Assembly: GCA_008363075.1 (NCBI GenBank)
Contig: RHKK01000005.1
Location: 1-64,000, forward strand
Source of the DNA: Candidatus Uhrbacteria bacterium
Lineage (GTDB): Bacteria > Patescibacteriota > Patescibacteriia > 2-12-FULL-60-25
Reading direction: 5' to 3'
DNA length: 64,000 nucleotides
Below, piece after piece: positions 15,176 through 41,268 of this stretch. The notes under the pieces are model-generated. The model saw only the letters and a program-made list of their open reading frames with translations, ran no database searches and was not told the DNA's origin. The stretch's first letter is position 1. The number at the start of each line of letters is the position of its first letter. Position numbers and translations under genes: made by a program.

Positions 15176-16695
<1,520 letters not shown>

Positions 16696-24200: not shown

Positions 24201-24250
24201 GCGATGAGTGTAGCATTTTCGATGTCTGATGCCGAGTGGATCCTCTGCTC

Positions 24251-24340
24251 GTCATCATCCCGACCGAGGAGCGAAGCGACGAGCGGAGGGATCGCTTCGA
24301 AGGGATCCCTCGACTTCACTATCGTTTCGCTCGGGATGAC
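24251..24340. repeat. Family A palindromic repeat, copy 3
   Basis: It starts GTCATCATCCCGACCG and ends TTTCGCTCGGGATGAC. Its first 57-base core (24256-24312) is identical to the copy inside prmC (33125-33181). It ends 1 bp before the malic-enzyme stop codon. Confidence 0.9.
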
Positions 24341-24341
24341 A

Positions 24342-25481
24342 TCATAAGGACACGCTCTTGGCGACGAGCTCGTGCAGTCCCGGCTCAAAAATGGATGGAA
24401 TGATCTTACCCGCGGTCGGGGTAGCGACCGCCGCCGCGAGGGCGCGGGCGGCCCGCAACTTGATCTCGTCGGTGACACGTTTCACGCCCGAGTCGAGCAT
24501 CCCGCGAAAGAGCCCCGGATAGCACAGGGCGTTGTTCACCTGGTTCGGAAAATCGCTGCGTCCGGTCGCAAGCACCGCAACGCCCGCCGCTTTCGCGACG
24601 TCTGGCAGGATCTCGGGCACCGGATTCGCGAGCGCGAAGACGACCGGGTCGCGCGCCATCGACCGCACGATCTCCGGCGTGAACGCGCCTGCCGCGGACA
24701 CGCCGATAAGCACGTCCGCGCCAATGGCGATTTCCGCAAGCGAGCCGGCGCGCTTCTCCCGGTTCGTGAATCCCGCGACGAGCGCTTTCTCCTCGTTCAA
24801 TCCCTCGCGGCCTTCGTACACCGCGCCGCGCCGGTCGCAGACCACGAGTTCCCTGACGCCGGCCGTCACGAGGAGCTTCGCGGCCGCGATCCCGGCCGCG
24901 CCCGCGCCGTTCATCACGACACGGATCTCCCCGATCTCCTTGCGTACGACCCGGAGCGCGTTGATCAGTCCGGCGAGGATTACGATCGCCGTGCCGTGCT
25001 GGTCGTCGTGCATCACCGGCATCTCGAGACGCTCCATGAGACGGCGTTCGATCTCGAAACAGCGCGGCGCGGAAATATCTTCGAGCTGAATCGCGCCGAA
25101 GCTCGGCGCGACATGCACGATCGTCTCCACGATCGCATCCACGTCCTTCGTGTCTAAAATCAACGGCACCGCGTCGATGCCGGAGAAGCGCTTGAAGATC
25201 GCGCATTTGCCTTCCAGTACGGGTAACGCCGTGAGCGGTCCGATGTCGCCGAGGCCAAGCACGGCCGTCCCGTCGGAAAAAATCGCGACGGCGTTCTTGC
25301 GCCACGTTAGATCGTCCACGCGGGCCGGATTCCGGGCGATCTCTTCCGACACGGCGCCGACGCCCGGCGAATACACGAGCGTCAGGTCCCTGACCGTTTC
25401 AATTTCGCAGGTCGCCTCGATCCGGATCTTCCCGCGAAGCTTGGTATGAAGGTCCAGTGATTCTTGCTTGATGTCTGTCAT
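24342..25481 (-). CDS. NAD(P)-dependent malic enzyme
   Basis: The 379-residue protein is a short bacterial malic enzyme that converts malate to pyruvate and CO2. It has the substrate loop LVYSPGVGAVS, GDIGPLTALPVLEGK, the metal-site IQLEDISAPRCFEIE and HDDQHGTAIV, the Rossmann motif VVMNGAGAAGIA, and ATGRSDFPNQVNN near the end. In an organism with few carbon pathways it may be a link to pyruvate or NAD(P)H. It is divergently transcribed from the DUF5671 gene across 33 bp. Its stop abuts a family A repeat. Confidence 0.93.
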   Translation of the reverse strand: MTDIKQESLDLHTKLRGKIRIEATCEIETVRDLTLVYSPGVGAVSEEIARNPARVDDLTWRKNAVAIFSDGTAVLGLGDIGPLTALPVLEGKCAIFKRFSGIDAVPLILDTKDVDAIVETIVHVAPSFGAIQLEDISAPRCFEIERRLMERLEMPVMHDDQHGTAIVILAGLINALRVVRKEIGEIRVVMNGAGAAGIAAAKLLVTAGVRELVVCDRRGAVYEGREGLNEEKALVAGFTNREKRAGSLAEIAIGADVLIGVSAAGAFTPEIVRSMARDPVVFALANPVPEILPDVAKAAGVAVLATGRSDFPNQVNNALCYPGLFRGMLDSGVKRVTDEIKLRAARALAAAVATPTAGKIIPSIFEPGLHELVAKSVSL

Positions 25482-25496
25482 AAAAAGCTCTACAGT
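25468..25496 (+). promoter_or_regulatory. Promoter of the DUF5671 operon
   Basis: TTGATG (25468-25473) and TACAGT (25491-25496) are 17 bp apart. The -35 lies inside the first codons of the divergent malic-enzyme gene. Confidence 0.45.
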
Positions 25497-25514
25497 AGGC
25501 TTAAGCATGAACCT

Positions 25515-26159
25515 ATGACCAACGAACTGCAAGCATTCGTAAAAGAAGGCCTTTCCAAGGGCTTGAGTCGCGAAAAAATGAAAACGGTGCTGCTCGGCGC
25601 GGGCTGGCAGGACGACGAGGTCCGCCAGGCACTCGATCAGTACGCGGACATCGACTTTCCGATCCCCGTCCCCAAGCGCAAGCCCTACCTATCGGCGCGC
25701 GAGGCATTCATGTACCTCGTGATGTTCCTCACGCTGTACGTCACCGCATTTAGCGTCGGCACGATCCTGTTCCAGATCATCAACCTTTGGCTGCCGGACG
25801 CCGCACAGCTCGCTTTCGGATACGCATCAGACTACTCCACAAGCCTCATCCGTTCCTCGACGGCCGCCATTATCATCACCTTCCCGCTCTTCCTGTTCAT
25901 GGCGCGGTTGCTGCAGCGCGCCATCAAGCGAGACCCGTCCAAGCGCTCCAGCCTCATCCGTAAGTGGCTGACCTACATCACGCTCTACATCGCTACGGGC
26001 ATTATCGTGGGCGACCTGATCACGCTCGTCACCTATGTCCTGAACGGCGACCTGACCCTGCGGTTTGTCCTGAAGGTGCTCGTCGTCCTCGTCATCGCGG
26101 GCAGCGTCTTTGGATATTATCTTTGGGATCTTCGCACCGAAGAAAAAGAAACCCTATGA
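25515..26159 (+). CDS. DUF5671-domain membrane protein
   Basis: The 214-residue protein starts with a cytosolic segment that resembles a UBA/SHOCT-like helical motif (LQAFVKEGLSKGLSREKMKTVLLGAGWQ). Four membrane helices follow, beginning with SAREAFMYLVMFLTLYVTAFSVG, a typical DUF5671 start. DUF5671 is frequent in Patescibacteria; its function is unknown. It overlaps the next gene by ATGA. Confidence 0.75.
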   Translation: MTNELQAFVKEGLSKGLSREKMKTVLLGAGWQDDEVRQALDQYADIDFPIPVPKRKPYLSAREAFMYLVMFLTLYVTAFSVGTILFQIINLWLPDAAQLAFGYASDYSTSLIRSSTAAIIITFPLFLFMARLLQRAIKRDPSKRSSLIRKWLTYITLYIATGIIVGDLITLVTYVLNGDLTLRFVLKVLVVLVIAGSVFGYYLWDLRTEEKETL

Positions 26160-26644
26160 AAAGACAAGCCGTAAAATCGGAAATCTCGAAATACGATTCC
26201 GTCGGATTCCGCGTCTTCGTCGGCGCGGTGATCGTTGCGGTGCTCGCCGTACTCGTCGCGGGCCTGTGGCTCGGCGGATCGCCCGCGCAGGAGCGCGCGC
26301 GGCGGCTCGACTCGGCGCGCGTTTCGGATTTGCAAAACGTCTCCAACGCGATCGACCAATATTACAATACGAACAACGCTCTACCGCCCGACCTCGACAC
26401 GCTCGCCCGTGCACGCGAGACGTATTTCATCGGGAACGTCGCCGACCCGGAAAGCGGCGAACCGTACGAATACGTGATCCGCGGGGCGAACACTTACGAT
26501 CTGTGCGCGACGTTCGCGACCGACAACCGCGATGAAGACTCGGTCCGCCCGCGCGAACCTTATCCGAGCTGGGAAGGCCGCTTTTGGCGGCACGGTCCGG
26601 AACGCACGTGCTTCACGATCACCGCCCGGACCTTCCCGAAATAA
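26156..26644 (+). CDS. Membrane-anchored pilin-like protein of unknown function
   Basis: The 162-residue protein has one N-terminal membrane helix (VFVGAVIVAVLAVLVAGLWL). An extracytoplasmic region follows that begins like a pseudopilin: RVSDLQNVSNAIDQYYNTNNALPPDLDTL, a pattern of helix, Y-x-x-N and proline seen after the transmembrane helix of type II/IV pilins. No GFxxxE cleavage motif is present, so it is not a classical pilin. It is coupled to the DUF5671 gene (ATGA). Confidence 0.6.
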   Translation: MKRQAVKSEISKYDSVGFRVFVGAVIVAVLAVLVAGLWLGGSPAQERARRLDSARVSDLQNVSNAIDQYYNTNNALPPDLDTLARARETYFIGNVADPESGEPYEYVIRGANTYDLCATFATDNRDEDSVRPREPYPSWEGRFWRHGPERTCFTITARTFPK

Positions 26645-26647
26645 CGT

Positions 26648-27094
26648 ATGAACGTCGATTACGCTTCCATCACCCTACCGAAGAAGGACCTGGAGGAACT
26701 GTACCGCGGTTTGGCGTTGCGCCATCTGATGGAAAACGAGATCCGGCGCGAAGAGGGATTGGAGGAGATCGAGGAACCCAGGGTCCTGCACGCGCTCGAA
26801 ACGGCGCTCAATCTCACCGACGCGGAAGCGGACGGGCTCTATCACCGAGCCGAAGACGAGCTTTGGGATTACGCCTGGTACGCGTACACCGACGAGTGGG
26901 CGTGGTTCCGCGCGCGGCAGGAGGTGCTCGACGAGCTCGGATCCAAACGGACGGGATTGACGCAAGAGGCGCTGGATCGCAAGACGGAAGACCGCTATCG
27001 CGAAAAGTTCGACGCGTACGTCGCGGAGATCGACATGCGCGAACCGGCGGCGGGTTCCAAAAAGAAGAAAGAGAAGAAGCGGGCACAGAAATGA
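26648..27094 (+). CDS. Charged protein of unknown function
   Basis: The 148-residue soluble protein is very acidic and helical in its core (LMENEIRREEGLEEIEEP; TDAEADGLYHRAEDELWDYAWY) with a lysine-rich tail (SKKKKEKKRAQK). It is tryptophan- and tyrosine-rich around residue 78. No family is recognised. It starts 3 bp after the preceding gene and is the last of the three-gene DUF5671 operon; a phrase repeat follows its stop. Confidence 0.6.
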   Translation: MNVDYASITLPKKDLEELYRGLALRHLMENEIRREEGLEEIEEPRVLHALETALNLTDAEADGLYHRAEDELWDYAWYAYTDEWAWFRARQEVLDELGSKRTGLTQEALDRKTEDRYREKFDAYVAEIDMREPAAGSKKKKEKKRAQK

Positions 27095-27164
27095 AGTGAA
27101 GTGTGAAACGTGAAGAGTGAAAGGTCTGACGCTTCACTCTACACTCTTCACTCTACACTTTTCT
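27095..27164. repeat. Phrase repeat (GAAGTGTGAA / TTCACTCTACACT units)
   Basis: Units such as GTGAAGAGTGAAAGG on the left and CACTCTACACTCTTCACTC on the right form an imperfect inverted repeat of short tandem phrases. The block ends just before an extended -10 box of the next gene. Confidence 0.65.
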
Positions 27165-27173
27165 TGTTATACT
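27165..27173 (+). promoter_or_regulatory. Extended -10 promoter of the GT28-like gene
   Basis: TGTTATACT (27165-27173) is an extended -10 element. The start point would fall at about 27180, immediately before the ATG at 27181, implying a leaderless mRNA. Confidence 0.5.
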
Positions 27174-27180
27174 TTTCCCG

Positions 27181-28521
27181 ATGGACTCGCACCGCCACCA
27201 AAATGCGTGGATCATTTCGGTCAACATGGGCTATGGCCATGCGCGTGCCGCGTATGGCTTGGAAGACCTTGCGCGTGGCGGCATCATCACCGCGAACGAC
27301 TATCCGGGCATCCCCTCCCGCGACCGAGAGTTATGGCGCAAATCCCGCGATGCGTACGAATTCATCTCACGACTACAACCGCTGCCCGGCATCGGCAAGA
27401 TTGCGTTCGGCGTGCTTGATTATCTCCAGAGCATTCCGGATTTTTACCCGCGACGCGACTTGAGCCAACCGACGCTCCAGCTAAAATACGTGTATCATCT
27501 CATCCGCCGGAAAAATCTCGGAAAGCATCTCATCGAAAAGCTTGCCAAGAAGCCGCTGCCCCTCGTGTCAACCTTTTTTAACGTCGGGTTCGCGGCCGAG
27601 GAACACGGCTATCCGGGAGACATCTATCTTGTGACGACGGATGCGGACGTCAGCCGCGCCTGGGTGCCGCTTGATCCGAAACGCAGCCGCATCAAGTACT
27701 TCGCCTCCAACGGCCGCGTGGTGGAACGCCTCAAACTCTACGGCGTACGGGTAGAAAACATCTTCCTGACGGGATTCCCACTCCCGAAAAAACTGATCGG
27801 CGGGCCGGAGGCGACGATCGTGAAGCGTGATCTCGCCGCTCGGATTTGCAACCTCGATCCGAACGGCATCTTCATCAAGAAGTACGAGAAAGTCCTGCTC
27901 GACGAGCTCGGACCGGAACTGTGCGAATTCAAAAAAAAGCATCCGCTCACGCTCACCTTCGCGGTCGGCGGCGCGGGGGCGCAGCGTGAACTCGGCATCG
28001 AGATCATCAAGGGCCTGCGATACCGCATCATGCAGGGCGCGATCCAGGTGAATCTCGAGGCCGGTATCCGTCCCGAAGTCGCGGCGTATTTCGAACGCGA
28101 GGTCCGGAAGCTTCGGCTGGGGAAGGCGCTCGGGAAAGGGATCCACATCCACGCGTATCCCGACCGCGGCAAATACTTCCGCGCATTGAACGACACGCTG
28201 CGCAAAACCGACATCCTGTGGACCAAGCCGAGCGAAATGTCCTTCTATTGCGGCATCGGCCTCCCGATCATCATGGCGCCGACGATCGGCTCGCAGGAGG
28301 ATTTTAACAAATTATGGCTCGAATCGGCCGTGAACGCGGGCACGTCGCAGCTTGACCCCGCTTACTGCGGCGAATGGTTGTTTGACTGGATCAACTCCGG
28401 CGGTCTCGCGAAATACGCCTGGAACGGCTACATCGAGGCGCCCACGCACGGCACCTATCGCATCGAAAGCGTCCTCACCGGCGAAAAGATGCCGGTCGCG
28501 GAATTGCCGCTCATTGTGTAG
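27181..28521 (+). CDS. MurG/MGDG-synthase-like (GT28-type) glycosyltransferase
   Basis: The 446-residue protein begins AWIISVNMGYGHARAA, which resembles the N-terminal glycine-loop of GT-B diacylglycerol glucosyl/galactosyl transferases. It has a second Rossmann region at LTFAVGGAGAQRELG and a late acceptor/donor segment WTKPSEMSFYCGIGLPIIMAPTIGSQEDFN. This is like the donor-site GG...P motif of the family but longer. A membrane glycolipid or wall-precursor role is plausible; the exact reaction is unknown. It has its own promoter and probably a leaderless message. Confidence 0.6.
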   Translation: MDSHRHQNAWIISVNMGYGHARAAYGLEDLARGGIITANDYPGIPSRDRELWRKSRDAYEFISRLQPLPGIGKIAFGVLDYLQSIPDFYPRRDLSQPTLQLKYVYHLIRRKNLGKHLIEKLAKKPLPLVSTFFNVGFAAEEHGYPGDIYLVTTDADVSRAWVPLDPKRSRIKYFASNGRVVERLKLYGVRVENIFLTGFPLPKKLIGGPEATIVKRDLAARICNLDPNGIFIKKYEKVLLDELGPELCEFKKKHPLTLTFAVGGAGAQRELGIEIIKGLRYRIMQGAIQVNLEAGIRPEVAAYFEREVRKLRLGKALGKGIHIHAYPDRGKYFRALNDTLRKTDILWTKPSEMSFYCGIGLPIIMAPTIGSQEDFNKLWLESAVNAGTSQLDPAYCGEWLFDWINSGGLAKYAWNGYIEAPTHGTYRIESVLTGEKMPVAELPLIV

Positions 28522-28537
28522 TGACCAGTTACTTGCC

Positions 28538-28798
28538 CTATTTTCCGTACAGCGGAAGTTCTGATTCCGCGGATGCGCCGTTATTAACCCACGCACTTAC
28601 GAGGCCGCTGACGTTCGACGTGCCCGTCAAATCCGGCATGAGCCAACCGAGCAAAAAGGCGGACGCGATGAACAGCACGATAAATCCACCGACGATACCG
28701 AAAAACACCTCATCGGCTTCGGCGATTTCAAAAATAAGCGTGTAGATGAGAATCGCAACCACCAAAAGCGCGATGGCGATAATCAATGCCAAAATCAT
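28538..28798 (-). CDS. Small two-helix membrane protein
   Basis: The 86-residue protein has two membrane helices (residues 2-25 and 33-55), with EIAEADE between them and a Gly/Ser/Asn-rich C-terminal end. No family is recognised. It stands alone on the minus strand between the glycosyltransferase gene and a 34-bp palindrome. Confidence 0.6.
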   Translation of the reverse strand: MILALIIAIALLVVAILIYTLIFEIAEADEVFFGIVGGFIVLFIASAFLLGWLMPDLTGTSNVSGLVSAWVNNGASAESELPLYGK

Positions 28799-28850
28799 AG
28801 GGAATCAACGGTTTCTCGATCGTAAGATCGAAATAAAGAAATGTCAACCT

Positions 28851-28884
28851 GTCGTAGGGGCAAGGCGCGCCTTGCCCCTACGAC
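28851..28884. repeat. Family C perfect palindrome, copy 1
   Basis: GTCGTAGGGGCAAGGCG and its exact reverse complement form a 34-bp perfect palindrome. The right arm carries the TAG stop codon of the M29-like gene. Confidence 0.9.
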
Positions 28885-29951
28885 ATCAAAAATCGTCCGT
28901 CTTCATATACCGTCTTCCCATCCGCCGTGATCCGATCCACGGCCGGAAAGATGTCGATATGATACTTGGTGTGATGCGGGATGAACCCCGGTTTTTTGTA
29001 CACGCCATGCTTTTCGCCGAGCGAAAGGTGCAGGCCGTACACGCGTTCGAATGCCGTGATGTCGTTGAGCGGTTTCTCGCGCGAGATGGCGCGGTTCAAT
29101 CCGAGACCGAATTCGCGCACAAGCGGTCGCTCGTCCGCCTTGATCTTTGCGATGACGTCGACGAAGGCCTGCGGCGCATCCGGACCGGGCGCAATGAGGC
29201 CGTCACGGACAATGGCCGTGAACGGCGGGTCGTAAAAACGGACGAGAAAATCGTCGTCGGCAAAGGCGTAGATTTTCAGCTCGCCGTTCACCTTTGACAA
29301 ATCACGCGCCTCGGTAAACACCTCGCCGATCGGAAACGTGCCGCCGACATTTTCCATGCCCGTATAGTCGCCGATATTGAGCTTGGCCGGCTCCATCCCG
29401 CCTTCCCACGTGAGGACGGAATCGCCGCATTCGACGCGCACAGTCGAAACTTCATCAAGCATCCATTTCAACGCGCGGCCCGTCTCCCCGTCCGCGTCCG
29501 GATCGAAGGCGAGCGCGTCGATCCAGGTCGCCCATTGCGCTTCCGGCATCCGCGCGAGATGCACGTGTTCGATCGTCTTAAGCTTGCGCGCGAATAGTTC
29601 GAGGCGGATGCGGAACTCGTTCAGACGAAAGCTAGTCGATTGGACAAGCGCGACCACGTCGCCGGGCTTGAGCGCGTCGATGTTTGCCAGGGTGAAGGGC
29701 TGATCGGATGCATCGAAGTCGATGAATACCGCGTCTGGCGCGGCTTCGCGATACGCGTCCGCCATGACCGACGCGAGGCCGGACTGCCGGTCATACACGA
29801 CCAACACGCGCGCGTCCGGCACACGCTTGATGGAATTCGTGAGGATGCGGCGGATGTGTCCGGCCGCGATGGAAACCAATGGATTCACGGCCGCAAGATC
29901 GCATGTTTTGGGGAAAAAGAAAAGACCCAGATGGGTCAGGCCGTCAGACAC
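28878..29951 (-). CDS. M29-like aminopeptidase-family protein
   Basis: The 357-residue protein resembles M29 (AmpS/aminopeptidase T) metallopeptidases. The family metal ligands have likely equivalents: Glu in FPIGEVFTEA, Glu in VREFGLGLN, His in LHLSLGEKHG and the HxD pair in KYHIDIF. The fold is shared with 2,5-dihydroxypyridine dioxygenases, so peptidase activity is probable but not certain. Its 5' end overlaps pyrF by 16 bp. Its last two residues (Met-Ser) and the stop codon lie in a family C palindrome. Confidence 0.65.
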   Translation of the reverse strand: MSDGLTHLGLFFFPKTCDLAAVNPLVSIAAGHIRRILTNSIKRVPDARVLVVYDRQSGLASVMADAYREAAPDAVFIDFDASDQPFTLANIDALKPGDVVALVQSTSFRLNEFRIRLELFARKLKTIEHVHLARMPEAQWATWIDALAFDPDADGETGRALKWMLDEVSTVRVECGDSVLTWEGGMEPAKLNIGDYTGMENVGGTFPIGEVFTEARDLSKVNGELKIYAFADDDFLVRFYDPPFTAIVRDGLIAPGPDAPQAFVDVIAKIKADERPLVREFGLGLNRAISREKPLNDITAFERVYGLHLSLGEKHGVYKKPGFIPHHTKYHIDIFPAVDRITADGKTVYEDGRFLMS

Positions 29952-30796
29952 GCCGTGATCTGGTCGTGCAGCTTCTGCGTCTCGCGGCGGGCGGCCTCGG
30001 CGAAGTCCTCGCCGCTCGAGGCGTAGAGGATGCCGCGCGACGAGTTGATGATCATGCCGCGACCTTGGGAGTCGCGGCCGGCCTTCACGGCCGCCTCGAG
30101 ATCGCCGCCCTGCGCCCCGATGCCGGGGATCAGGATCGGCATGTCGCCGACGATCCGGCGAACCTCAGCGAGCTCGGACGGGTAGGTCGCACCGACCACG
30201 ACCGCGCAATTACCCTTCGTGTTCCACGCTCGCGCGACCTGTCGCGCTACATACACGTAGAGTGGTCCATCGCGAGTGGTCAGCATGTCCTGGAACTCCC
30301 CCGCGCCGGGATTCGACGTGCGGCAGAGCACGATCACGCCCTTGTCGGCGCGATCGAGGAACGGCTTCATCGCCTCGGCGCCGAGATACGGATGCACCGT
30401 GATCGCATCGGCCTGCAGGTCGTCGAAGGCGCTCTTCGCGTAGCCTGCGTTGGTGTTCCCGATGTCCGCGCGCTTTGCGTCGTAGATCACGGGCACGTCC
30501 GGCGCGTAGTGACGGATGTGGTACAACGTCCACGCGAGCGCCTCGATCCCGGCCGCGCCGTACGCCTCGTAGAACGCGGCGTTCGGCTTGTACGCGCAGA
30601 CGAGGTCCTTAGTCATGTCCACGATCGCGATGTTGAACGCGGCGATCGTGGCGGTTCTCTCGTCGATGTCCCTCGAACGCAGGTGCGTCGGGATCGTCAC
30701 GGACTTCGGGAGCTTCTCCAGCACCGGATCGAGCCCCACGCACACGAACTTGCCCTCGGCCCACTTGGCCTCGAGCATCTGCATGAAATGTCTCAA
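29936..30796 (-). CDS. pyrF: Orotidine 5'-phosphate decarboxylase (type 2)
   Basis: It catalyses OMP to UMP, the last step of pyrimidine synthesis. The 286-residue protein has the type 2 signature VIYDAKRADIGNT and the downstream PGIGAQGGD and NSSRGILYAS phosphate-binding segments. The start is most likely the TTG at 30796: AGGAGG is spaced six bases before it, and this leader is nearly the same as that of the phosphatase gene at 43519. The ATG at 30784 is the alternative. No other pyrimidine gene is in the window. Confidence 0.92.
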   Translation of the reverse strand: MRHFMQMLEAKWAEGKFVCVGLDPVLEKLPKSVTIPTHLRSRDIDERTATIAAFNIAIVDMTKDLVCAYKPNAAFYEAYGAAGIEALAWTLYHIRHYAPDVPVIYDAKRADIGNTNAGYAKSAFDDLQADAITVHPYLGAEAMKPFLDRADKGVIVLCRTSNPGAGEFQDMLTTRDGPLYVYVARQVARAWNTKGNCAVVVGATYPSELAEVRRIVGDMPILIPGIGAQGGDLEAAVKAGRDSQGRGMIINSSRGILYASSGEDFAEAARRETQKLHDQITACLTA

Positions 30797-30851
30797 AGAG
30801 CACCTCCTTATGTGCGGAGGCAACCTTTACAGAATACGCCTTTTTTATCAA
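30797..30851 (-). promoter_or_regulatory. pyrF leader: possible promoter and strong SD before TTG
   Basis: TTGATA (30846-30851) overlaps the stop codon of the upstream gene. A weak TAAAGG (30824-30829) follows at 16 bp, then CCGCACATAAGGAGGTGC just before the TTG start. Similar blocks in the same order occur at 43464-43518. Confidence 0.45.
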
Positions 30852-32107
30852 GGCGCCGGAGGCATAATGCGATACACAAGCCCCGCCTTGTCATCCGTCA
30901 CGTACAACGCGCCATCAGAACCGAAGGTCAGGTCCGCCGGACGTCCGAGCACACCTTGGTCGGACAACCAACCGGAGACGAAGTCTTCATCACGCACGAC
31001 GTTCCCATTCTCACCCAGCACGAACCGGCGAATCACATATCCGGTCGGCTCGGAACGATTCCACGAACCGTGATACGCAACGAGCAGGTTCCCGACGTAC
31101 TCCTCCGGCCACCCTGCATCCTTCGGGACAAAGGCGAGTCCAAGCGGCGCGCTATGCGCCGGCAGGTCGATATGGCTCGGCGTCTCAAACGGCTCCATGC
31201 ACGGATTGCGGATATACGTGTTCTTGTCGAAGACCGTGTCGTGGACGTTCTTACCGTAACAAATCGGCCACCCGTAATTCTTCCCCTCTTCGATGATGTT
31301 GATCTCGTCCGGCGGCAAATCGTCACCGAGAAAATCGCGTCCCATTTCCGTCGCCCAGATTTCGCCGTCCGGCGCGACTTCGAGGAAAACGGAGTTGCGC
31401 AAACCCGTCGCGTACGGCTGCATGTCGGTGCCGTCCGTCAGCACGGATTGGATGGAACCGCGGCGCGCATCCTCTTCGCGGCACACGTCGCACGATGAAC
31501 CGATGCTGATGAGGATACGCTCTTCCTCTTTGCCGGCACGCGCGAACTCGATACTCTTCGTGGTATGGCGCCCGCCGGTCGGCAGGACCGTCATCACGCG
31601 ATGCGAGTCCGCGCGGGTCAGGTCCTCATTCAGACGCATCCGGCTCAAGGCATCCGTCTCGGCCACGAGCAGGTCGTACCCGTCCCTCGGATAGAACAGG
31701 AAATCGTGCGGCCGGTTCAGGTTCGATGCAACCGTGACGCGCTCCTCGGACACGCCGTCACCGTCGGCATCCGGCAAGAGCGAGATCCGACCCGCGTTCG
31801 GCTCGGCCACCATCACGCTCCCGTTCGGCGCGATGCGAATCGAGCGCGGCGATTCTAGGTTCTTCGCAAACAGGTTGATGGAAAATCCGCGCGGCAACAC
31901 GAGCGGCATCCCCGTCTCGTTTTTGCCGAGCGGCGTTCCTCCGTCTCCCGTTGAGGTGACCGGTTGCTCGGGAATCACCTTCGAGAGGTCGATCGACGGT
32001 TGGCTCAAAATGGGGATAAATCCTCGATACGGCCATGCGATGATGAGAAGTCCGAGGATGATCGCCAGCACGAGCCCGGCGATGATCCCGTAGCGACGAG
32101 TGTTCAT
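30848..32107 (-). CDS. Membrane-anchored PQQ-type sugar/sorbosone dehydrogenase-like beta-propeller
   Basis: The 419-residue protein has an N-terminal membrane helix (YGIIAGLVLAIILGLLIIAWPY), then a six-bladed propeller like soluble glucose or sorbosone dehydrogenases. Landmarks are GFSINLFAKNLESPRSIRIAPNGSV, the His-containing GGRHTTKSIEFA, NSVFLEVAPDGEIWATEMGRD, YHGSWNRSEPTGY and GRPADLTFGSDGALYVTDD. It should act outside the membrane on a sugar or aldehyde, but PQQ supply is unknown in such small genomes, so it may be a binding protein. Its stop codon lies within the possible -35 of pyrF. Confidence 0.75.
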   Translation of the reverse strand: MNTRRYGIIAGLVLAIILGLLIIAWPYRGFIPILSQPSIDLSKVIPEQPVTSTGDGGTPLGKNETGMPLVLPRGFSINLFAKNLESPRSIRIAPNGSVMVAEPNAGRISLLPDADGDGVSEERVTVASNLNRPHDFLFYPRDGYDLLVAETDALSRMRLNEDLTRADSHRVMTVLPTGGRHTTKSIEFARAGKEEERILISIGSSCDVCREEDARRGSIQSVLTDGTDMQPYATGLRNSVFLEVAPDGEIWATEMGRDFLGDDLPPDEINIIEEGKNYGWPICYGKNVHDTVFDKNTYIRNPCMEPFETPSHIDLPAHSAPLGLAFVPKDAGWPEEYVGNLLVAYHGSWNRSEPTGYVIRRFVLGENGNVVRDEDFVSGWLSDQGVLGRPADLTFGSDGALYVTDDKAGLVYRIMPPAP

Positions 32108-32128
32108 ACGGATACATCGTAGCAACGC

Positions 32129-32157
32129 AAAACCCCGCCGAAAAGGCGGGGGTTTTT
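32129..32157. terminator. Bidirectional terminator
   Basis: A CCCCGCC/GGCGGGG stem is flanked by AAAA and TTTTT; it can stop minus-strand transcription coming from tRNA-Val. Confidence 0.8.
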
Positions 32158-32165
32158 GAGGCCCT

Positions 32166-32267
32166 GCCACGTGAACGACAGCGGTACGGGGGCCACGTAA
32201 AATCCTCGCTGCTGCTCGGATCACGTGGCACGTAAAAACGACAGCGCTAGGCTGTCGTTTTTACGTG
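32166..32267 (-). repeat. tRNA-Val trailer with repeated CACGTAAA boxes and hairpin
   Basis: After the CCA end comes a perfect 17-bp hairpin (32229-32245 with 32251-32267) containing GTTTTTACGTG. Then come GCCACGTG, TTTACGTGGCC and TTCACGTGGCA boxes spaced by about 20 and 15 bases. Order and spacing match the tRNA-Gln trailer at 13591-13695, while the spacer sequences differ. Confidence 0.65.
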
Positions 32268-32342
32268 GTGGACGTTGCAGGATTCGAACCTGCGACCTCA
32301 CCGATGTGAACGGTGCGCTCTAACCAACTGAGCTAAACGTCC
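32266..32342 (-). tRNA. tRNA-Val (anticodon CAC)
   Basis: The acceptor stem is GGACGTT/AACGTCC, the D-arm is AGCTCAGTTGGTTAGAGC, the anticodon stem CACCG/CGGTG has loop TTCACAT, the T-loop is TTCGAAT, and the CCA is encoded. Confidence 0.95.
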
Positions 32343-32386
32343 AAAGTGGTCTGATAGTATGGAATAACCTACAATTTGGCAAGGCT

Positions 32387-33367
32387 ATGGGCAAAACCCT
32401 CGGCATGTGGATTTCCGGCGCCGCGCAGGCGCTGGAAGCGATAGCGGAAGACCGCGAACAGGCCTGGATCGAAGCTAGGCGCCTCGCGGCATTCGGTTTG
32501 AAAAAACCCGAATCCTGGCTGGTCGCGCATGCCGACCAAGTCCTGATGGCAAACCGGCTCAAAGCGCTGGACGCCTTGCTCAAACGTCGGCTCAAACGCG
32601 AGCCTATGGAATATCTCCTCGGTTCGGCCGTTTTCTTCGGCCGGGAATTCGCCGTCGACAAGCGCGTCCTGATTCCGCGCCCGGAGACCGAGGATCTTGT
32701 CGTCGAAGCGTTGAAGGATATCCGGCCGGGCGATCTCGTTGTGGAGATCGGAACCGGGTCGGGCGCGATTGCCGTGAGCGTCGCGACCGAGCGCCCGGAC
32801 GTCACGGTGTTCGCAAGCGATACCGACGCGGCCGCGCTCTCGGTCGCAAGAAAAAACGCGCGGCGCCTCGCGCCGGGACGCATCCGCTTCTTCCACGGAT
32901 CGCTGTTCCATCCCGCACTGATCCGTGCGATGCGCACCGTAGGGGCAAGGCGCGCCTTGCCCCTACGCATCCACATCCTCGCCAATCTTCCTTATCTCCC
33001 CGCTTCCGACCGCAAAACCATGCCCGCTTCGGTCATCAGATACGAACCCGCCAAAGCGCTCTTCGCGAAAGATGATGGGATGGAACTGAATAAGAGACTG
33101 TTGGAGCAAGTCGCCTCATTGATCCATCCCGACCGAGGAGCGAAGCGACGAGCGGAGGGATCGCTTCGAAGGGATCCCTCGGCTCCGCTCGGGATGACAT
33201 GCGCGGTTCTATTGGAATTCGATCCGCCGCAATCCAAAAAGCTCTCCGCGTTTGCGAAGAGCCTGATACCGGATGCCGACGTTTCGATCATCCGCGACCG
33301 CTGCGGCCGCGAACGCCTCTTGCGTGTCAGCCTTCAAACCCGCCGAAAATCGCGTCATGCGTCGTGA
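32387..33367 (+). CDS. prmC: Peptide chain release factor methyltransferase with two in-frame repeat insertions
   Basis: PrmC (HemK) methylates the Gln of the GGQ motif in release factors. The 326-residue protein has the helical N-terminal domain, the PRPETEDLV segment (98-106), SAM motif VVEIGTGSGAIAV (118-130) and the catalytic motif as NLPY (200-203), where NPPY is usual. Two stretches are foreign: residues about 185-194 (VGARRALPLR) are encoded by a family C palindrome, and about 246-270 by a family A repeat. Both keep the frame. The first lies directly before the catalytic strand, so activity should be tested. It converges with the DUF3048 gene and overlaps it by 41 bp. Confidence 0.9.
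   Translation: MGKTLGMWISGAAQALEAIAEDREQAWIEARRLAAFGLKKPESWLVAHADQVLMANRLKALDALLKRRLKREPMEYLLGSAVFFGREFAVDKRVLIPRPETEDLVVEALKDIRPGDLVVEIGTGSGAIAVSVATERPDVTVFASDTDAAALSVARKNARRLAPGRIRFFHGSLFHPALIRAMRTVGARRALPLRIHILANLPYLPASDRKTMPASVIRYEPAKALFAKDDGMELNKRLLEQVASLIHPDRGAKRRAEGSLRRDPSAPLGMTCAVLLEFDPPQSKKLSAFAKSLIPDADVSIIRDRCGRERLLRVSLQTRRKSRHAS
32938..32967. repeat. Family C perfect palindrome, copy 2 (inside prmC)
   Basis: This 30-bp perfect palindrome (CGTAGGGGCAAGGCG plus its complement) is identical to the core of 28851-28884. Its length is exactly ten codons. Confidence 0.9.
33123..33198. repeat. Family A palindromic repeat, copy 4 (inside prmC)
   Basis: It shares 57 identical bases with the copy at 24256-24312 and ends CGCTCGGGATGAC. 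It is translated in frame as PrmC residues about 246-270. Confidence 0.9.
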
Positions 33368-34421
33368 CGTGGATCCACGTCCGACCGCGCGTGAACAGAA
33401 ATTCGGACCCGTCGCCGGCTTCGAATTTCACTGGTTTGCCCGGCGCGCGGCTCCAGCGCAGGATGAACTTTTTTCCGTCGCGATAGGCCACCGCCTCGCC
33501 GCTGCCGGTCGTTCGAATGCGCAACCGGCCGACCTCGTCGAGCACCTGCTCTTCCGTTTTGATGACGATCACGTTTTCGGATTCGATCGGCAAGCCGTCA
33601 CGATCAAGCTGCGGACGCCCGGCCTGGCTGCGGACATAGACGCCACGAACGCGGTCGTACGCCCACGAAACGCTGAACGAACCGCCGTACGGCACGCTGA
33701 TGGAATCGACGTCGCCGCGGTCCGTGGATGAAGCCGCATCGATAAAATGCCACGCCTCGACCGCACGCGTCGTGGTCGCGTTCTTACGCTCGAGTACCGC
33801 GTCCATGCGCTCCTTGTCCGTGTAGGTGTTGTGCGGGGCCGCGCGGCGGCGGTCGCGCCAAAACGAGGCGCCATACGCGAATTCGTTCACGTCCACGAAC
33901 CCGTCGAGCGACTTGATCAGGTCGAGCGCTTCCGGACTGCCGCCGACGTGAAACAGCGACGCGTTCCAGCCGCGCGCCCATTCCACGTAATACGGACGCG
34001 CGCTGCGAACGGGGCCCACCTCATCGAGCGTCGTCGTCGCGTCATAGAACGCGAGGAAACGCGTGATCCCTCCTTCCACCGGCGCCTCGATCACGAGGCT
34101 CGCGGCCGCGAGGCCGGAGACCGGGCGCGCGTCCGGATGGTTCTCGACGATCACGGCGCGCGGCGCGTACGCCTCCTCCCCGGCAGGTACGAACACGCCG
34201 TCCAAATAGCGCGGCACGAGGTCGCCCACGACGACCTCCCGCTTTTCCTCGTCCGGCCCGTTAGCCACCGCCGGCGTGGAACGCAGGCCGCCCGCGATCA
34301 CATACCAAAAGAGGCCGATGGAAACCGCAAGCAACAAAACGGCTCCGCCGACGAGCGGCCAGCGGAACCGTTTGGCGTGAGACATGACGAGTGCCTGCGC
34401 CTTGGCAAGCCAAGTTTGCAT
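33327..34421 (-). CDS. DUF3048 (YerB-like) membrane-anchored protein
   Basis: The 364-residue protein has an N-terminal membrane helix (about residues 22-43) and a large outer domain of the DUF3048 family: RAVIVENHPDARPVSGLAAASLVIEAPVEGGITRFLAFY, then VGPVRSARPYYVEWA and FWRDRRRAAPHNTYTD. The function of the family is unknown; members occur on Gram-positive and CPR surfaces. The C-terminal RGRTWIHVT strand is usual. Its 3' end overlaps prmC. Confidence 0.85.
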   Translation of the reverse strand: MQTWLAKAQALVMSHAKRFRWPLVGGAVLLLAVSIGLFWYVIAGGLRSTPAVANGPDEEKREVVVGDLVPRYLDGVFVPAGEEAYAPRAVIVENHPDARPVSGLAAASLVIEAPVEGGITRFLAFYDATTTLDEVGPVRSARPYYVEWARGWNASLFHVGGSPEALDLIKSLDGFVDVNEFAYGASFWRDRRRAAPHNTYTDKERMDAVLERKNATTTRAVEAWHFIDAASSTDRGDVDSISVPYGGSFSVSWAYDRVRGVYVRSQAGRPQLDRDGLPIESENVIVIKTEEQVLDEVGRLRIRTTGSGEAVAYRDGKKFILRWSRAPGKPVKFEAGDGSEFLFTRGRTWIHVTTHDAIFGGFEG

Positions 34422-34436
34422 GACTCCAGTGTACTC

Positions 34437-35135
34437 TTATGCGGCTTCCTTCGCACCACCCTCCGCGGCGCCCTCGGCAGCCTCTTCCGCAGCCTCGGCG
34501 GCTTTCTTCTCTTCCGCCTCGGTCTTGATCGCAGAGACGTCGCCGACCTGGCTCTCTTCAAGCGCCTTGAGTTCCTCTTCCGTCAGCGGGCGCGCCACCG
34601 TGGCGATCGTGAGTTCCGGTTCATCCACGAATTCGACGCCCTTGGGCGCCATCAGCGAACCGATCGTAATCGCATCCTCGAACGTCGCGAGCGCGCCAAG
34701 ATCGACCTGGATCTCGTGCGGCAAGTCGCCCGGCAGACAACGCACGGTGACCTCGTCCATCGACTTCACGAGCGTACCGCCTTCGTTCTTGACGGCCGCC
34801 GATTCACCGGTGAACGCGAGCGGAATATCCGCCTCGATCTCCTGGTCCATGCGCACCTGATGGAAATCCACGTGGATCGGATCCATCGTGATCGGATTCA
34901 TCTGCAGCTCCTTGATCAGCACTTTGACCGGCGCCTCGGAACCGACGGTCACGTCGATCAACGCCGATTGGCCGGCGGTATTGTAAAGCTTGATGAACTC
35001 GCTGCGTCCGATGGAAATCGGCTTCGGTTCCACGCCCGCGCCGTACATCACGGCAGGAATGCGCATCTCCTTCAACTCATCTTTGGCGCGTCGTCCGAGC
35101 TTGATGCGCGGCTGCGCGGTAATGGCGTATGGCAT
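34437..35135 (-). CDS. rplY: Ribosomal protein bL25 (Ctc form)
   Basis: The 232-residue protein has the 5S rRNA-binding L25 domain (first about 90 residues, including IPAVMYGAGVEPKPISI) and the TL5/CTC C-terminal domain (VDFHQVRMDQEIEADIPLAF). It ends in a low-complexity Glu/Ala tail (EEKKAAEAAEEAAEGAAEGG) of about 40 residues. The ATG at 35135 starts the L25 fold; an upstream in-frame codon adds a non-family leader. Confidence 0.93.
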   Translation of the reverse strand: MPYAITAQPRIKLGRRAKDELKEMRIPAVMYGAGVEPKPISIGRSEFIKLYNTAGQSALIDVTVGSEAPVKVLIKELQMNPITMDPIHVDFHQVRMDQEIEADIPLAFTGESAAVKNEGGTLVKSMDEVTVRCLPGDLPHEIQVDLGALATFEDAITIGSLMAPKGVEFVDEPELTIATVARPLTEEELKALEESQVGDVSAIKTEAEEKKAAEAAEEAAEGAAEGGAKEAA

Positions 35136-35245
35136 ACGAAAATCGAAAAAGTGTCGATACATTACACGAAAACCCGGAGGACGTCAAGCGACCGACTCAT
35201 CAGGCAAGCCCGTGAAAAAACGGCGAATTTAAAGCTATTTTGGCG

Positions 35246-35569
35246 TTAACCGGCGCTTGATAAACGCTCAATCAAGTCCCGGCTCTGCTCCTCCAGCAGG
35301 ACATGCGCTCCGATACACTCGTCCGACGAAATCGGGGGGCGTTCCGTGAGACGTACGGCATCCACGACGGTCTGATCCGTCACCAGCCCGATGGTGCTCA
35401 CGTAGCCCGTATTCTCCCGCATCAAGGCCATCATTGAACGTCCGCAAAAACCGCAAGAACAATGGAATAGCTTTCCCGCCTCCGTCTCTCCCAGCGCCTT
35501 CACTGCGTCTTCCGGATACGAGGCGTGACACAACGGACATTCAACGATCAAACGTGACGGCAAACTCAT
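35246..35569 (-). CDS. Small zinc-binding protein of unknown function
   Basis: The 107-residue protein has five cysteines in an N-terminal cluster: CPLC at 11-14 and CSCGFC about 24 residues later. A predicted helical and strand tail (MALMRENTGYVSTIGLVTDQTVVDAVRL) follows. It looks like a zinc ribbon with a regulatory or RNA-linked role; no family name is certain. It lies between rplY and gyrB, separated from the latter by a phrase repeat. Confidence 0.6.
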   Translation of the reverse strand: MSLPSRLIVECPLCHASYPEDAVKALGETEAGKLFHCSCGFCGRSMMALMRENTGYVSTIGLVTDQTVVDAVRLTERPPISSDECIGAHVLLEEQSRDLIERLSSAG

Positions 35570-35580
35570 ACAAGAAAAGC

Positions 35581-35667
35581 ATAACAGATATACAAGAATT
35601 AGGAATGAGGCCTAAAGGATTAGGGTGGGGAAAACCCTTATCCCTCATTCCTTAGGCCTAATCCTTA
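35581..35667. repeat. Phrase repeat, inverted (GGAATGAGG ... CCTCATTCC)
   Basis: Units of AGGCCTAA, GGATTAGG and GGAATGAGG are arranged as an imperfect inverted repeat that fills the gap between gyrB and the zinc-binding gene. Confidence 0.65.
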
Positions 35668-35671
35668 CAAA

Positions 35672-37747
<2,076 letters not shown>

Positions 37748-37800
37748 TCAAATCGGCCCCGAAATCCAGGCATGAGTCAAGGGCATGTTACAATGGCCCC

Positions 37801-38679
37801 ATGGCGGACAATCATGTCATCGGCTCCGGGCTGACCGAGCAGGAATTGAAGCTCGCGTCGTTTTGGGTACGGAACCGGCCGTTGCTGCGCCGGATCGGGT
37901 ACGGGAGCCTGATCGCCGTCTCGAGCGTCCTGTGGTTGTTCGTGTTGTGGTCGCTGCTTGATGCGTACGCGATTTCGTATCCGCGCGAATCGCGCATCCA
38001 TCGCGTCGTCGTACAGAACCAGCTCGCCATCGACGGACTCCGTGCCTCAGCGCCGCGACCGATCGAACCGAGCCAGACGTCCGTGTTCGACGCAACCGAC
38101 GGCCGGCAGGATGTGCTTGTCGAAATCCTGAACCCGAACGCGACGTGGTGGGCGGAATTCGATTATCAATTCGAACTCTCCGGCGAGCGTACGCCGATGC
38201 GCAAGGGATATGTCCTGCCCAACGGCCGCCGCTACCTCACCGAGCTAGGCTTTACGCCGGAAACCCGCGGACGCACCGCGCGTCTCGTCGTGGAAAACGT
38301 ACGTTGGATGCGCGTCGATCCGTCGGCGGTCGGTGGCAATTACGCAGCGTTCGCCGACGCGCGTCTCCAGTTCCGCACGGAGAATCCGACGTACACGCGC
38401 GATCTCACGATCGGCACGACGCCGGTCGGCCAAAGCACGTTCCAGCTCGTGAACGACAGCGCGTTCGGATACTGGAATCCAAGCGTCACGGTCGTACTGT
38501 ACCGCGGTACGACGCCGGTCGGCGTGACCACCGTTCAGCCGCCGCTCATCCGCCCGGGCGAAACCGTCCCCATGACCATCAACTGGTTCGAAAGCCTCGC
38601 GGGCGTGAGCCGAACCGACGTGCAGGTGAACGTGAACATCCTGGATCGTGGCGCCTATTTGCCGACAAGCGGGATTTAA
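37801..38679 (+). CDS. Membrane-anchored protein of unknown function upstream of rodA
   Basis: The 292-residue protein has one membrane helix at about 38-60 (YGSLIAVSSVLWLFVLWSLLDAY) and an outer region with two beta-rich halves. The second half holds PTYTRDLTIGTTPVGQSTFQLVNDSAFGYWNP, which has an immunoglobulin-like look. No family name is recognised. It precedes rodA and is separated from it by a family A repeat, so a wall- or shape-related role is only a context guess. Confidence 0.55.
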   Translation: MADNHVIGSGLTEQELKLASFWVRNRPLLRRIGYGSLIAVSSVLWLFVLWSLLDAYAISYPRESRIHRVVVQNQLAIDGLRASAPRPIEPSQTSVFDATDGRQDVLVEILNPNATWWAEFDYQFELSGERTPMRKGYVLPNGRRYLTELGFTPETRGRTARLVVENVRWMRVDPSAVGGNYAAFADARLQFRTENPTYTRDLTIGTTPVGQSTFQLVNDSAFGYWNPSVTVVLYRGTTPVGVTTVQPPLIRPGETVPMTINWFESLAGVSRTDVQVNVNILDRGAYLPTSGI

Positions 38680-38682
38680 ATT

Positions 38683-38753
38683 TCATTCCGAGCAACGCCG
38701 AGGAATCCCTTCGAAGAGATCCCTCGGCTTCATTTCATTTTGCTCGGGATGAC
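38683..38753. repeat. Family A palindromic repeat, copy 5
   Basis: It starts TCATTCCGAGC and ends TTGCTCGGGATGAC, 3 bp after the stop of the preceding gene. A phrase repeat (GTTAACTGTTATCTGTAAACTGT, 38770-38792) follows before rodA. Confidence 0.85.
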
Positions 38754-38801
38754 AGACGGGCTCTGCTCTGTTAACTGTTATCTGTAAACTGTCTTCTTCC
38801 C

Positions 38802-39956
38802 ATGACCCGCATCCTCGAACTCTTCCAGCGCATCGACTGGATGATGCTCACGGTGGCGCTGACCCTCACCTCGATCGGTCTCGTGGCGATTTACGGCATC
38901 GGCGTCTCGCAGGAACCGGCCAATCTCTTTCTTTTTCAGAAACAATTCGTCACCGCCCTCATCGGCCTCGCGCTGATCCTGTTGCTCACCCTGTTCGACT
39001 ACCGTCATTTGCGCGCATACGGATTCTACCTGTACCTCGCGGGTGCCGCGGTCCTCGCGGGCGTGCTATTCTTCGGCGTCGAGGTCAACGGCACGCAGGG
39101 CTGGTTCCGCGTCGGCGCGCTTTCCTTCCAGCCGATCGAAGTCGCGAAAGTGACGCTCGCGATCTATCTCGCCGCGCTGTACGCCAAACGCGGCCGCGGC
39201 CGGCTCACGTGGACGACGTTTCTTATGGGTGGCGTCGCGACCGGGCTGTACACCGCGCTCGCCTTCCTGCAACCGGACTTCGGTTCCGGCATGGTGCTCG
39301 TGCTGATCTGGGGCGGGATCTCGGCGTTCGCGGGCCTGCCGAAACGCGCCTGGATTATCCTGCCGCTTTTGCTTATCACGACGGGGACGCTCGTTTGGAG
39401 CTATGCCCTCAAGCCCTACCAACGCGCGCGCATCGAATCCTTCCTCGATCCGACGACGGATCCGCGCGGCTCGGGATATAACGCGATCCAGGCGCGCATC
39501 GCCATCGGTTCCGGCGGCCTCTTCGGCAAAGGCATCGGCGAAGGATCGCAAGCGCGTCTGCGCTTTCTCCCTGCGGCGTCCACGGACTTCATCTTTGCCG
39601 TGGTCGGCGAGGAAATGGGCCTGGTCGGCGTGGTCTTCGTCTTCATCATGTTCTTCTTGCTCCTGTCGCGCTTCCTGCGCCTCGGCGACGAATCGGAAGA
39701 CGATTTCGCGGCGTATCTCCTTGTCGGCATCGGCTCCATGTATCTCATTCACTTGAGCGTGAACGCCGGCATGAACCTCGGTCTTTTGCCCATCACCGGC
39801 ATTCCGATGCCCTTTCTCTCCGCCGCCGCATCGAACCTGCTCGTGATTTACGCCTGTATCGGCCTTGCGCAATCCGTGGCCGTGCGTCGCCGTTGGACAC
39901 TCGAACGCGGTACCGGCGTGATGTTGTTCGAGTCCGAGCCTACGACGTCAGCGTAA
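38802..39956 (+). CDS. rodA: SEDS-family peptidoglycan polymerase
   Basis: The 384-residue, ten-helix protein is of the RodA/FtsW type, which polymerises lipid II into glycan strands. Landmarks are GWFRVGALSFQPIEVAKV, LQPDFGSGMVLVLIWGG, the catalytic-loop region GSGGLFGKGIGEGSQARLRFLPAASTDFIFAVVGEEMG and LLPITGIPMPFLSAAASNLLV. It is probably RodA (elongation) rather than FtsW, because it lacks FtsW's long tails. The 3' end overlaps the convergent dinB by 17 bp. Confidence 0.93.
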   Translation: MTRILELFQRIDWMMLTVALTLTSIGLVAIYGIGVSQEPANLFLFQKQFVTALIGLALILLLTLFDYRHLRAYGFYLYLAGAAVLAGVLFFGVEVNGTQGWFRVGALSFQPIEVAKVTLAIYLAALYAKRGRGRLTWTTFLMGGVATGLYTALAFLQPDFGSGMVLVLIWGGISAFAGLPKRAWIILPLLLITTGTLVWSYALKPYQRARIESFLDPTTDPRGSGYNAIQARIAIGSGGLFGKGIGEGSQARLRFLPAASTDFIFAVVGEEMGLVGVVFVFIMFFLLLSRFLRLGDESEDDFAAYLLVGIGSMYLIHLSVNAGMNLGLLPITGIPMPFLSAAASNLLVIYACIGLAQSVAVRRRWTLERGTGVMLFESEPTTSA

Positions 39957-41268
39957 CGTCCACGCCTTCCGTTTTTCGGAAACCGATGCGATCCGGCGCC
40001 TCATCGCCCAACGTCAGCATCTTGCCGAGCACGAGCGCATTCAACCCATACCGATCACGGACGGCATCCATCGCTTTGGACACGGCCTGCCGACGCTCCG
40101 GTACCATTTCCTCGCGCAACCCTTTGACCTTGAGATCGAACCGTCCCTGATACGTCGGTACGGTGAGATCGATCAACGTCACGGCGAGAAAATTGACGCG
40201 CTGACCGCTCCACAGCTCGCGCAGGAGATCGAGCGCGGTTCCGACGATCGTGAACGAATCGTCACAAGGCTCGGCAAACCACGCGTGAAGCGATCCGCCC
40301 GGCCCGTCGGATCCGGGCGTCCAAAACGGGCCCTGCGGACGCGGGCCGTCGGGCGTTTTTAGGCCGACGGACACGGAGATCCCGTTCGCGAGCAATCCGA
40401 GCCCGCGCATGCGCCGACCCGCGCGTTCGGTAAGCCGCATAAGCGTCGCCTCGACCTTTTTCTCGCGGTTCACGCGATCCGGCACGCAATACGAATGTCC
40501 GACGGATTTCGGCGGCGCCTCCGTCATCTCGCCGTCGGCGGCCACGTCCTCGATATCCGCGCCCTGTAAGCGTGCCTGGAGATAAAATCCGTTCACGCCG
40601 AACGCGCGGATGAGATTTTCCGTCGAAGCGTACTTCACGTCGAGCAGCGTGTGGTAACCGAGTCGCTCGAGGCGCCGACGCATGCGCGGCCCGATCCCGC
40701 ACACGTCCTCGAGATCGAGCCGCGAAAGCACGTCATCAATATTTTCATGCGTGATGATGGTGAGACCGTCCGGTTTTTGGAGATCGGATGCAGTCTTCGC
40801 CAGGAAGCGCGTCGGCGCAATGCCGACCGAGCAGCGCAGCCAGTCGCCGACCTCCTCCGTGATACGACGCTTGACGGTGGAAAGCGCGAACGCCGCCTCG
40901 GCCGCGTCACGATACCAGCCCGTGAGATCGAGGAACGCCTCGTCAATGGAGTAATGCTCCATGCGGTCGGTCAGCTCGTGCAGGATCGAGAAGATACGCG
41001 AAGTCACCGCGCGGTACTTGGGCGGATCATTTTGGACGAAGACCGCGTTCGGCACGGCTTGCCTGGCTTCGGTCATGCTCATGCCGACCTTGATGCCGAG
41101 CTTTTTTGCTTCGACCGAGGCCGCGATCACGCAGCCATGCGGATGCAAATAAGCGCAAACGCCAAGCGGCTTACCGCGCAGGGTCGGATTGGCCTGCTGC
41201 TCCACGGACGCGAAATACGAGTTCATGTCCACATGCGCAATCAGCTTTTCCGAACGCGGAAAATGCAT
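39940..41268 (-). CDS. dinB: DNA polymerase IV (Y-family)
   Basis: The 442-residue translesion polymerase has catalytic motifs HVDMNSYFASVE (first Asp) and YSIDEAFLDLT (Asp-Glu), the thumb helix-hairpin-helix region (DVCGIGPRMRRRLERLGYHTL) and the little-finger domain. Y-family enzymes copy past damaged bases with low fidelity. Residues PQGPFWTPGSDGPGGSLHAWF in the little finger form an unusual Gly/Pro-rich loop. The ATG at 41268 is a reasonable start. No LexA-type operator was seen. Confidence 0.92.
   Translation of the reverse strand: MHFPRSEKLIAHVDMNSYFASVEQQANPTLRGKPLGVCAYLHPHGCVIAASVEAKKLGIKVGMSMTEARQAVPNAVFVQNDPPKYRAVTSRIFSILHELTDRMEHYSIDEAFLDLTGWYRDAAEAAFALSTVKRRITEEVGDWLRCSVGIAPTRFLAKTASDLQKPDGLTIITHENIDDVLSRLDLEDVCGIGPRMRRRLERLGYHTLLDVKYASTENLIRAFGVNGFYLQARLQGADIEDVAADGEMTEAPPKSVGHSYCVPDRVNREKKVEATLMRLTERAGRRMRGLGLLANGISVSVGLKTPDGPRPQGPFWTPGSDGPGGSLHAWFAEPCDDSFTIVGTALDLLRELWSGQRVNFLAVTLIDLTVPTYQGRFDLKVKGLREEMVPERRQAVSKAMDAVRDRYGLNALVLGKMLTLGDEAPDRIGFRKTEGVDVTLTS

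Follow-up and report, generated by a model that had tools for sequence, protein, structure and literature searches.

In-frame palindromes of probable REP type in two predicted surface loops encoded by a bacterial release-factor methyltransferase gene, prmC

What enables a core translation gene to carry two different repeats within its reading frame, and of what kind are these repeats? The question is raised by prmC (32387-33367, + strand), a single ORF of 326 amino acids located in the window, i.e. the whole stretch of 64,000 nucleotides from a Candidatus Uhrbacteria bacterium which was analysed. Profile matches and an AlphaFold model assign its product to release-factor N5-glutamine methyltransferase. 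In hmmscan the protein scores 168.2 bits with hemK_fam, which is above the cut-off, and 197.9 bits with RF_mod_PrmC (TIGR03534), which is marginally below the cut-off of 199.1 bits. It displays the N-terminal PrmC domain, the SAM-binding GTGSG, the N-[PL]-P-Y catalytic motif and the HemK fold, all of which characterise PrmC/HemK proteins. The residues Pro73, Gly122, Gly124, Asn200, Pro202, Tyr203 and Glu277 are, together with further columns, invariant across 66 PrmC sequences of the class and present in this PrmC. Leu201 occurs in at least 90% of this alignment. We had also considered that NLPY in place of NPPY might result from the insert at site 1, a notion which was rejected as NLPY is the norm throughout the class. 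The AlphaFold model exhibits a confident PrmC fold (mean pLDDT 93.6) whose closest solved structure is that of E. coli PrmC in complex with RF1 (2b3t). No frameshift is present in prmC, as its single frame is open and every motif is in place. Hence, as originally predicted, both inserts preserve the frame; the conserved fold is retained in the model, and, judged by these features, the product is apparently functional despite them. The genome, a draft of 1.10 Mb with an estimated completeness of 99.9%, is the sole representative of its genus in the compared set, in which the family comprises 41 genomes from 21 genera; the genomes of family and phylum mostly range from 0.5 Mb to 1.6 Mb, sizes which point to a Patescibacteria-like lineage. 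It contains one prmC, with no second full-length match. Misassembly or decay of prmC might also account for its unusual composition, given that the draft consists of 25 contigs and that short repeats may mislead assemblers. In view of the open frame, the single copy, the intact motifs and the confident fold, and since comparable in-frame repeats arise independently in many other assemblies, we consider such an artefact extremely improbable.

The first of the two sites is occupied by a perfect palindrome of 28 bp, GTAGGGGCAAGGCGCGCCTTGCCCCTAC, at 32939-32966 (codons 185-194), which belongs to a GTAG-REP-type family designated C. If the flanking C/G pair is included the palindrome extends to the 30 bp initially described (32938-32967), and in the frame of prmC it reads VGARRALPLR (residues 185-194). 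The loop at this site comprises 26 amino acids compared to 19 in the nearest relative. This net gain of only seven residues implies that the palindrome replaced some codons or that the loop had been variable beforehand; its length ranges from 7 to 43 residues in 112 PrmC sequences. In the AlphaFold model the insert is defined with a pLDDT of about 91 and makes up the end of the helix formed by residues 176 to 187 as well as the loop preceding the strand formed by residues 194 to 199. The Asn200-Tyr203 motif follows directly, which agrees with the proposed location of the insert just ahead of the catalytic strand.

The pattern GTAGGGGC...GCCCCTAC defining family C is found in 17 exact copies throughout the genome while the reversed pattern, used as a control, yields none, so that its abundance is not due to chance. 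Altogether, about 20 copies are present, three of them degenerate. On both strands GTAG constitutes the 5' foot of the element and is paired with CTAC. The inner six bases vary from copy to copy, yet almost always remain self-complementary: within the stem, 98.9% of the cells of 13 distinct variants are paired, and 29 compensating double changes are observed vs 8.9 upon shuffling. Three copies detected by the pattern search are doublets of 48 bp to 49 bp (C18:5902-5950, C21:21838-21885 and C24:48610-48657) in which two REPs face each other in opposite orientation with GTAG outermost, which corresponds to the layout of a REPIN. Eight of the approximately 20 copies reside in frame within recognisable genes, namely three in pheT and one each in prmC, rsmA, pfkB, radA (a doublet) and a RAYT gene. 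Seven of these are read as VGA....PL and one (rsmA) as GRG....APT, while the third frame, which contains TAG, is used by none. At least six other copies are situated at gene ends where they provide the TAG stop codon (L067:2043-2070, 28854-28881 and 63330-63357 of the window, and copies in L077, L078 and L079). One copy, placed between the convergent TatD and HhH-GPD genes, serves as stop for both. Within the window, the copy at 28850-28885, whose core is identical to that of the prmC copy, terminates the ORF at 28881-29951 (- strand), and the copy at 63328-63359, bearing another self-complementary core (GTATTG), terminates a NAD-dependent epimerase gene (- strand). No shared motif is seen in the flanks of the family C copies, and literature searches for the GTAGGGGC palindrome or for “VGATHASP” led to no paper.

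By its sequence, the family C element belongs to the GTAG superfamily of REPs, an assignment which goes beyond the original prediction. RAYT-associated REPs have GTAG as their hallmark, and the tetranucleotide plays a part when they are recognised or cleaved (PMC3733652, PMC8266576); RAYT activity depends on it to a varying degree (PMC8266576). With the GTAG-REP/RAYT systems described as REPtrons or REPINs (Di Nocera 2013, PMC3733652; Bertels and Rainey 2011, PMC3116915; Corneloup 2021, PMC8266576) family C shares the dispersed short palindrome with a GTAG foot, the variable self-complementary core, head-to-head doublets, associated Y1/HUH transposase genes and intragenic copies, sometimes two per gene, including those in truB and in tRNA synthetase genes. 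It differs from described REPs in that GTAG is paired with CTAC and all 28 bp form one palindrome, while GTAG is unpaired in the former (PMC3733652). In addition, about 40% of its copies lie inside recognisable genes, and the RAYT gene holds an in-frame copy of its own.

The second site (about 33125-33199, codons ~247-271) harbours an imperfect palindrome of about 75 bp which belongs to a further family, A, and which is, as predicted, read in frame. For this copy, 18 further matches, full or partial, are found across the genome. The loop at this site amounts to 37 amino acids vs 13 in the nearest relative. Database alignments of PrmC relatives stop at residue ~248 and restart at residues ~270-274, and the columns of the insert are empty or almost empty in 30 homologues. 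The AlphaFold model depicts the insert as a low-confidence loop (pLDDT 54 to 58). Further in-frame copies of family A occur in truB, in two glycosyltransferase genes and at the end of radA; one of these is the partial copy at 54231-54264, which encodes residues ~105-116 of the glycosyltransferase gene at 53539-54576 (- strand). The copy at 24256-24315, 98% identical to the prmC copy across 60 bp, and the partial copy at 38683-38729 lie outside any supported gene, and the copy at 16618-16675 is not covered by any ORF of 90 amino acids. By inspection, some copies start with YGTC-ATCCC or YGTC-ATTCC, followed by an imperfect stem which exceeds the 8 bp to 9 bp typical of CGTC-REPs, where the stem encloses a short loop. 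Family A seems to represent a longer element whose ends resemble those of CGTC/TGTC-type REPs. Its nearest match are the CGTC-REPs, including dRS3 of Neisseria (PMC3733652), and for neither of the two is a dedicated transposase known. Unlike CGTC-REPs, however, family A forms an imperfect palindrome of greater length (about 75 bp to 90 bp), and the tag is confined to some of its copies.

To judge whether the inserts are peculiar to this PrmC, both sites were aligned with 30 homologues, 29 of which come from the same family. Both inserts turn out to be extra relative to the nearest relatives and are, hence, not conserved among PrmC homologues. The nearest PrmC in our data is about 50% identical; as a close relative with an empty site is not among them, the insertion event itself is not visible at base level. 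A search for related loci retrieved one distant PrmC only (Coriobacteriia). According to the model, the inserts sit in surface loops. Two repeat types, each dispersed in the genome, are involved, and the proposal of two independent insertions into a core gene is supported. We therefore consider it very likely that prmC has independently acquired two non-autonomous REP-type repeats which are accommodated in frame in permissive loops and translated into near-neutral extensions of the protein. Family C would move as single-stranded hairpin DNA, probably by means of a RAYT, i.e. a Y1/HUH transposase. Insertions breaking the frame, carrying a stop codon or disrupting the protein core would be purged by selection, while in-frame insertions in variable loops would persist as short extra peptides. 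We propose that the survivors are found in frame in variable loops because selection has removed the damaging ones.

The original prediction had further suggested that the elements tolerate or even favour being translated. Only the former part stands. In-frame position, loop location and an apparently functional gene speak for tolerance. Bacterial genomes are mostly coding, yet only about eight of 20 family C copies reside in recognisable genes and at least six supply TAG stops. Moreover, the palindrome can in any case be read without a stop codon in two of its three frames, so that selective loss of out-of-frame insertions suffices as an explanation. In addition, the sequences lack conservation from one genus to another, and the majority of copies either lie outside any gene or mark the end of one. 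The elements are, hence, tolerated in the PrmC loops, and a benefit from them is not indicated. A functional, selected role might nevertheless be envisaged, for instance a delay of translation between segments of PrmC caused by an mRNA hairpin, or an adjustment of release-factor binding by the peptide loop. Indeed, a strong hairpin is predicted for the mRNA at site 1 (-33.1 kcal/mol, z -5.3). The inserts, moreover, lie near the catalytic strand with NLPY and are flanked by two core strands, and Di Nocera et al. speculate on an altered activity of REP-tagged proteins (PMC3733652). At site 2, however, the RNA is not exceptionally stable compared to the surrounding region (z -1.1). Copies of one palindrome are found in unrelated genes as well as in intergenic stretches, and neither sequence nor presence of the inserts is conserved, each genus showing a different repeat or none in the PrmC loops. 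A functional role thus appears improbable to us.

Beyond the original prediction, the very loops which hold the two inserts are reused by other repeats in other genera. In the prmC loops of G035 a CCCCTCTC hairpin and an A-like element are found, and those of G038 and G012 contain TGTCATTCC-type REPs, which begin with this sequence, have a short hairpin and in this respect resemble CGTC-REPs. Within the respective genomes, further copies are detected of the A-like insert (G035) as well as of the REPs of G038 and G012, and many recurrences of the A-like element are present in G031. In further genera the loops are filled by heptamer arrays (residues ~107-118, 180-195 and 243-272, e.g. in L028, L032, L164, L202, L204 and L214). 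A survey of the class (112 PrmC sequences) locates 19 out of 23 heptamer arrays, of which codon shuffling leads to the expectation of none, in these three loops, together with 8 of 15 strong hairpins, the loops making up 12% of the residues; as they were chosen after inspection, the p-values of this test are descriptive only. The gene pheT, split over two contig ends (L058:529-1773 and L066:1382-2563), harbours its three family C palindromes in frame. At residue ~157 of PheT the present genome encodes VGAKHASPLR, G014 VGAIHELPLR and G016 VGAHGMRPG, while G011 and G025 possess REPIN-like doublets; at residue ~223 many other repeats are observed across the family. Likewise, loops of RsmA and TruB hold different repeats in different genera, and in G040 an almost identical translated doublet, GRGEPMRSPS.RPEGRHMGLPL, is present in frame in both rsmA (L235) and truB (L274), two different genes of tRNA/rRNA modification. 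GTAG palindromes, TGTC-type REPs, other hairpins and heptamer arrays thus share the loops of PrmC, PheT, RsmA and TruB. In related genera other repeats occupy the corresponding loops of prmC and of further core translation genes, and these loops thus give the impression of sites at which mobile palindromes settle time and again. The reuse by several repeat types, together with the cleavage of specific dinucleotides by RAYTs (PMC8266576), could also be taken to indicate targeting at the DNA level, with the loops having already held repeats or a transposase-preferred sequence, so that insertion preference rather than protein tolerance would be responsible. Yet, unrelated repeat classes including heptamer arrays, which are not known to transpose, occupy common loops, which points to protein tolerance, and a flanking motif common to the family C copies is not apparent. 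DNA-level targeting is accordingly rated as highly improbable. Under the preferred reading of in-frame insertion into permissive loops, we propose that different repeats settle there repeatedly as the permissive nature of a given loop is common to all genera.

With respect to the putative mobiliser of family C, the genome contains one intact-looking RAYT gene (L068:1722-2240, - strand). It yielded no match in a PF01797 search at E ≤ 0.001 and was recovered by hmmscan of the ORF (25.6 bits, cut-off 23). An HVH motif and a QRNYYE.VIR region align with 29 homologues and characterise the product as a predicted Y1/HUH transposase. Among 287 genomes of the phylum a RAYT homologue is present in 12 of the 18 which contain the palindrome and in 21 of the 269 without it (Fisher p 8e-9); this co-occurrence is a correlation, and the test ignores the relatedness of the genomes. 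In six palindrome-bearing genomes no RAYT homologue was detected. The L068 gene itself carries a family C palindrome in frame, and in-frame palindromes of the GTAG type, or close remnants of such, are present in 18 of the 30 RAYT ORFs which were read in the phylum. The palindrome is invariably placed in one fixed loop directly after the HUH strand (L068, L083-L111), its sequence differing by genus (GTAGGGGC..., GTAGAGACG..., GTAGGGACAGG...), and in some cases the in-frame palindrome is also present in the flanks of the gene. In the papers searched no description of RAYT genes with an internal palindrome was found, and one may well exist elsewhere. The feature is not universal as a related RAYT from a Leptolinea plasmid lacks it and in that from a Spirosoma plasmid a palindrome overlaps with the gene solely at its 3' end. 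Speculatively, and with a rather low probability, the RAYTs of this phylum may carry the REP as a fixed, translated part which renders the gene a permanent REP donor or self-binding, the elements in prmC, pheT, rsmA and truB being offspring preselected for translatability. Self-binding would mean that the RAYT protein binds its own gene or mRNA through the embedded hairpin, and REPs would have undergone selection for translatability inside the transposase before reaching prmC, pheT, rsmA and truB.

REPs are named as extragenic elements, and intragenic copies are regarded as exceptions. Intragenic GTAG- and CGTC-REPs have been published, with uvrA of O. terrae hit twice and with hits in truB (PMC3733652); as even two REPs per gene are on record, the prmC case belongs to a known phenomenon. 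In-frame palindromic elements of Rickettsia (RPE-1 to RPE-10) have been described as well (PMC10969869), of which RPE-4 and RPE-6 are CGTC-type REPs (PMC3733652). The analogy to them, drawn in the original prediction, appears apt as regards in-frame insertion tolerated in loops: there as here, dispersed palindromes of a small genome are found in frame in core genes and are presumably translated into surface loops. The likeness is one of working principle; compared by description, the RPEs appear unrelated in sequence, and elements of the RPE-1 type measure about 150 bp, while the main element here is 28 bp long, GTAG-tagged and RAYT-linked. With heptanucleotide tandem arrays of bacterial genomes (PMC4692102, PMC4679880) the heptamer arrays share units of 7 bp and short arrays, but unlike those they lie in coding sequence, in loops which palindromes occupy in other genera. 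The reuse of loops by different repeats across genera distinguishes the present case from GTAG-REP systems, for which the published hint consists in different REPs at about the same recB site of two Xanthomonas species (PMC3733652). Three aspects appear to be new, namely how extensively core translation genes of different genera show this reuse, the sharing of loops by repeat types which are unrelated to each other, and the RAYT genes with an internal palindrome. Throughout an entire bacterial family, short repeats of different kinds have repeatedly come to lie in the same loops of PrmC, PheT, RsmA and TruB, which supplies a natural map of peptide-accepting sites in core enzymes and allows one to test whether loop diversity routinely originates from mobile DNA. 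RAYT genes with an in-frame palindrome, in turn, provide an entry point for studying the spread of REPs.

We would like to mention some further features of the window. At 27095-27163 heptamer-like repeats are arranged as an imperfect inverted repeat (GAAGTGTGAAACGTGAAGAGTG / CACTCTTCACTCTACACTTTTC). In an Rfam scan of 24000-40000 a tRNA alone reached the curated threshold. A perfect stem-loop at 32229-32267, CACGTAAAAACGACAGC..GCTGTCGTTTTTACGTG, adjoins a tRNA gene, and another one, CACGTAAAAACCACGC..GCGTGGTTTTTACGTG, is located at 13659-13695; both possibly act as terminators.
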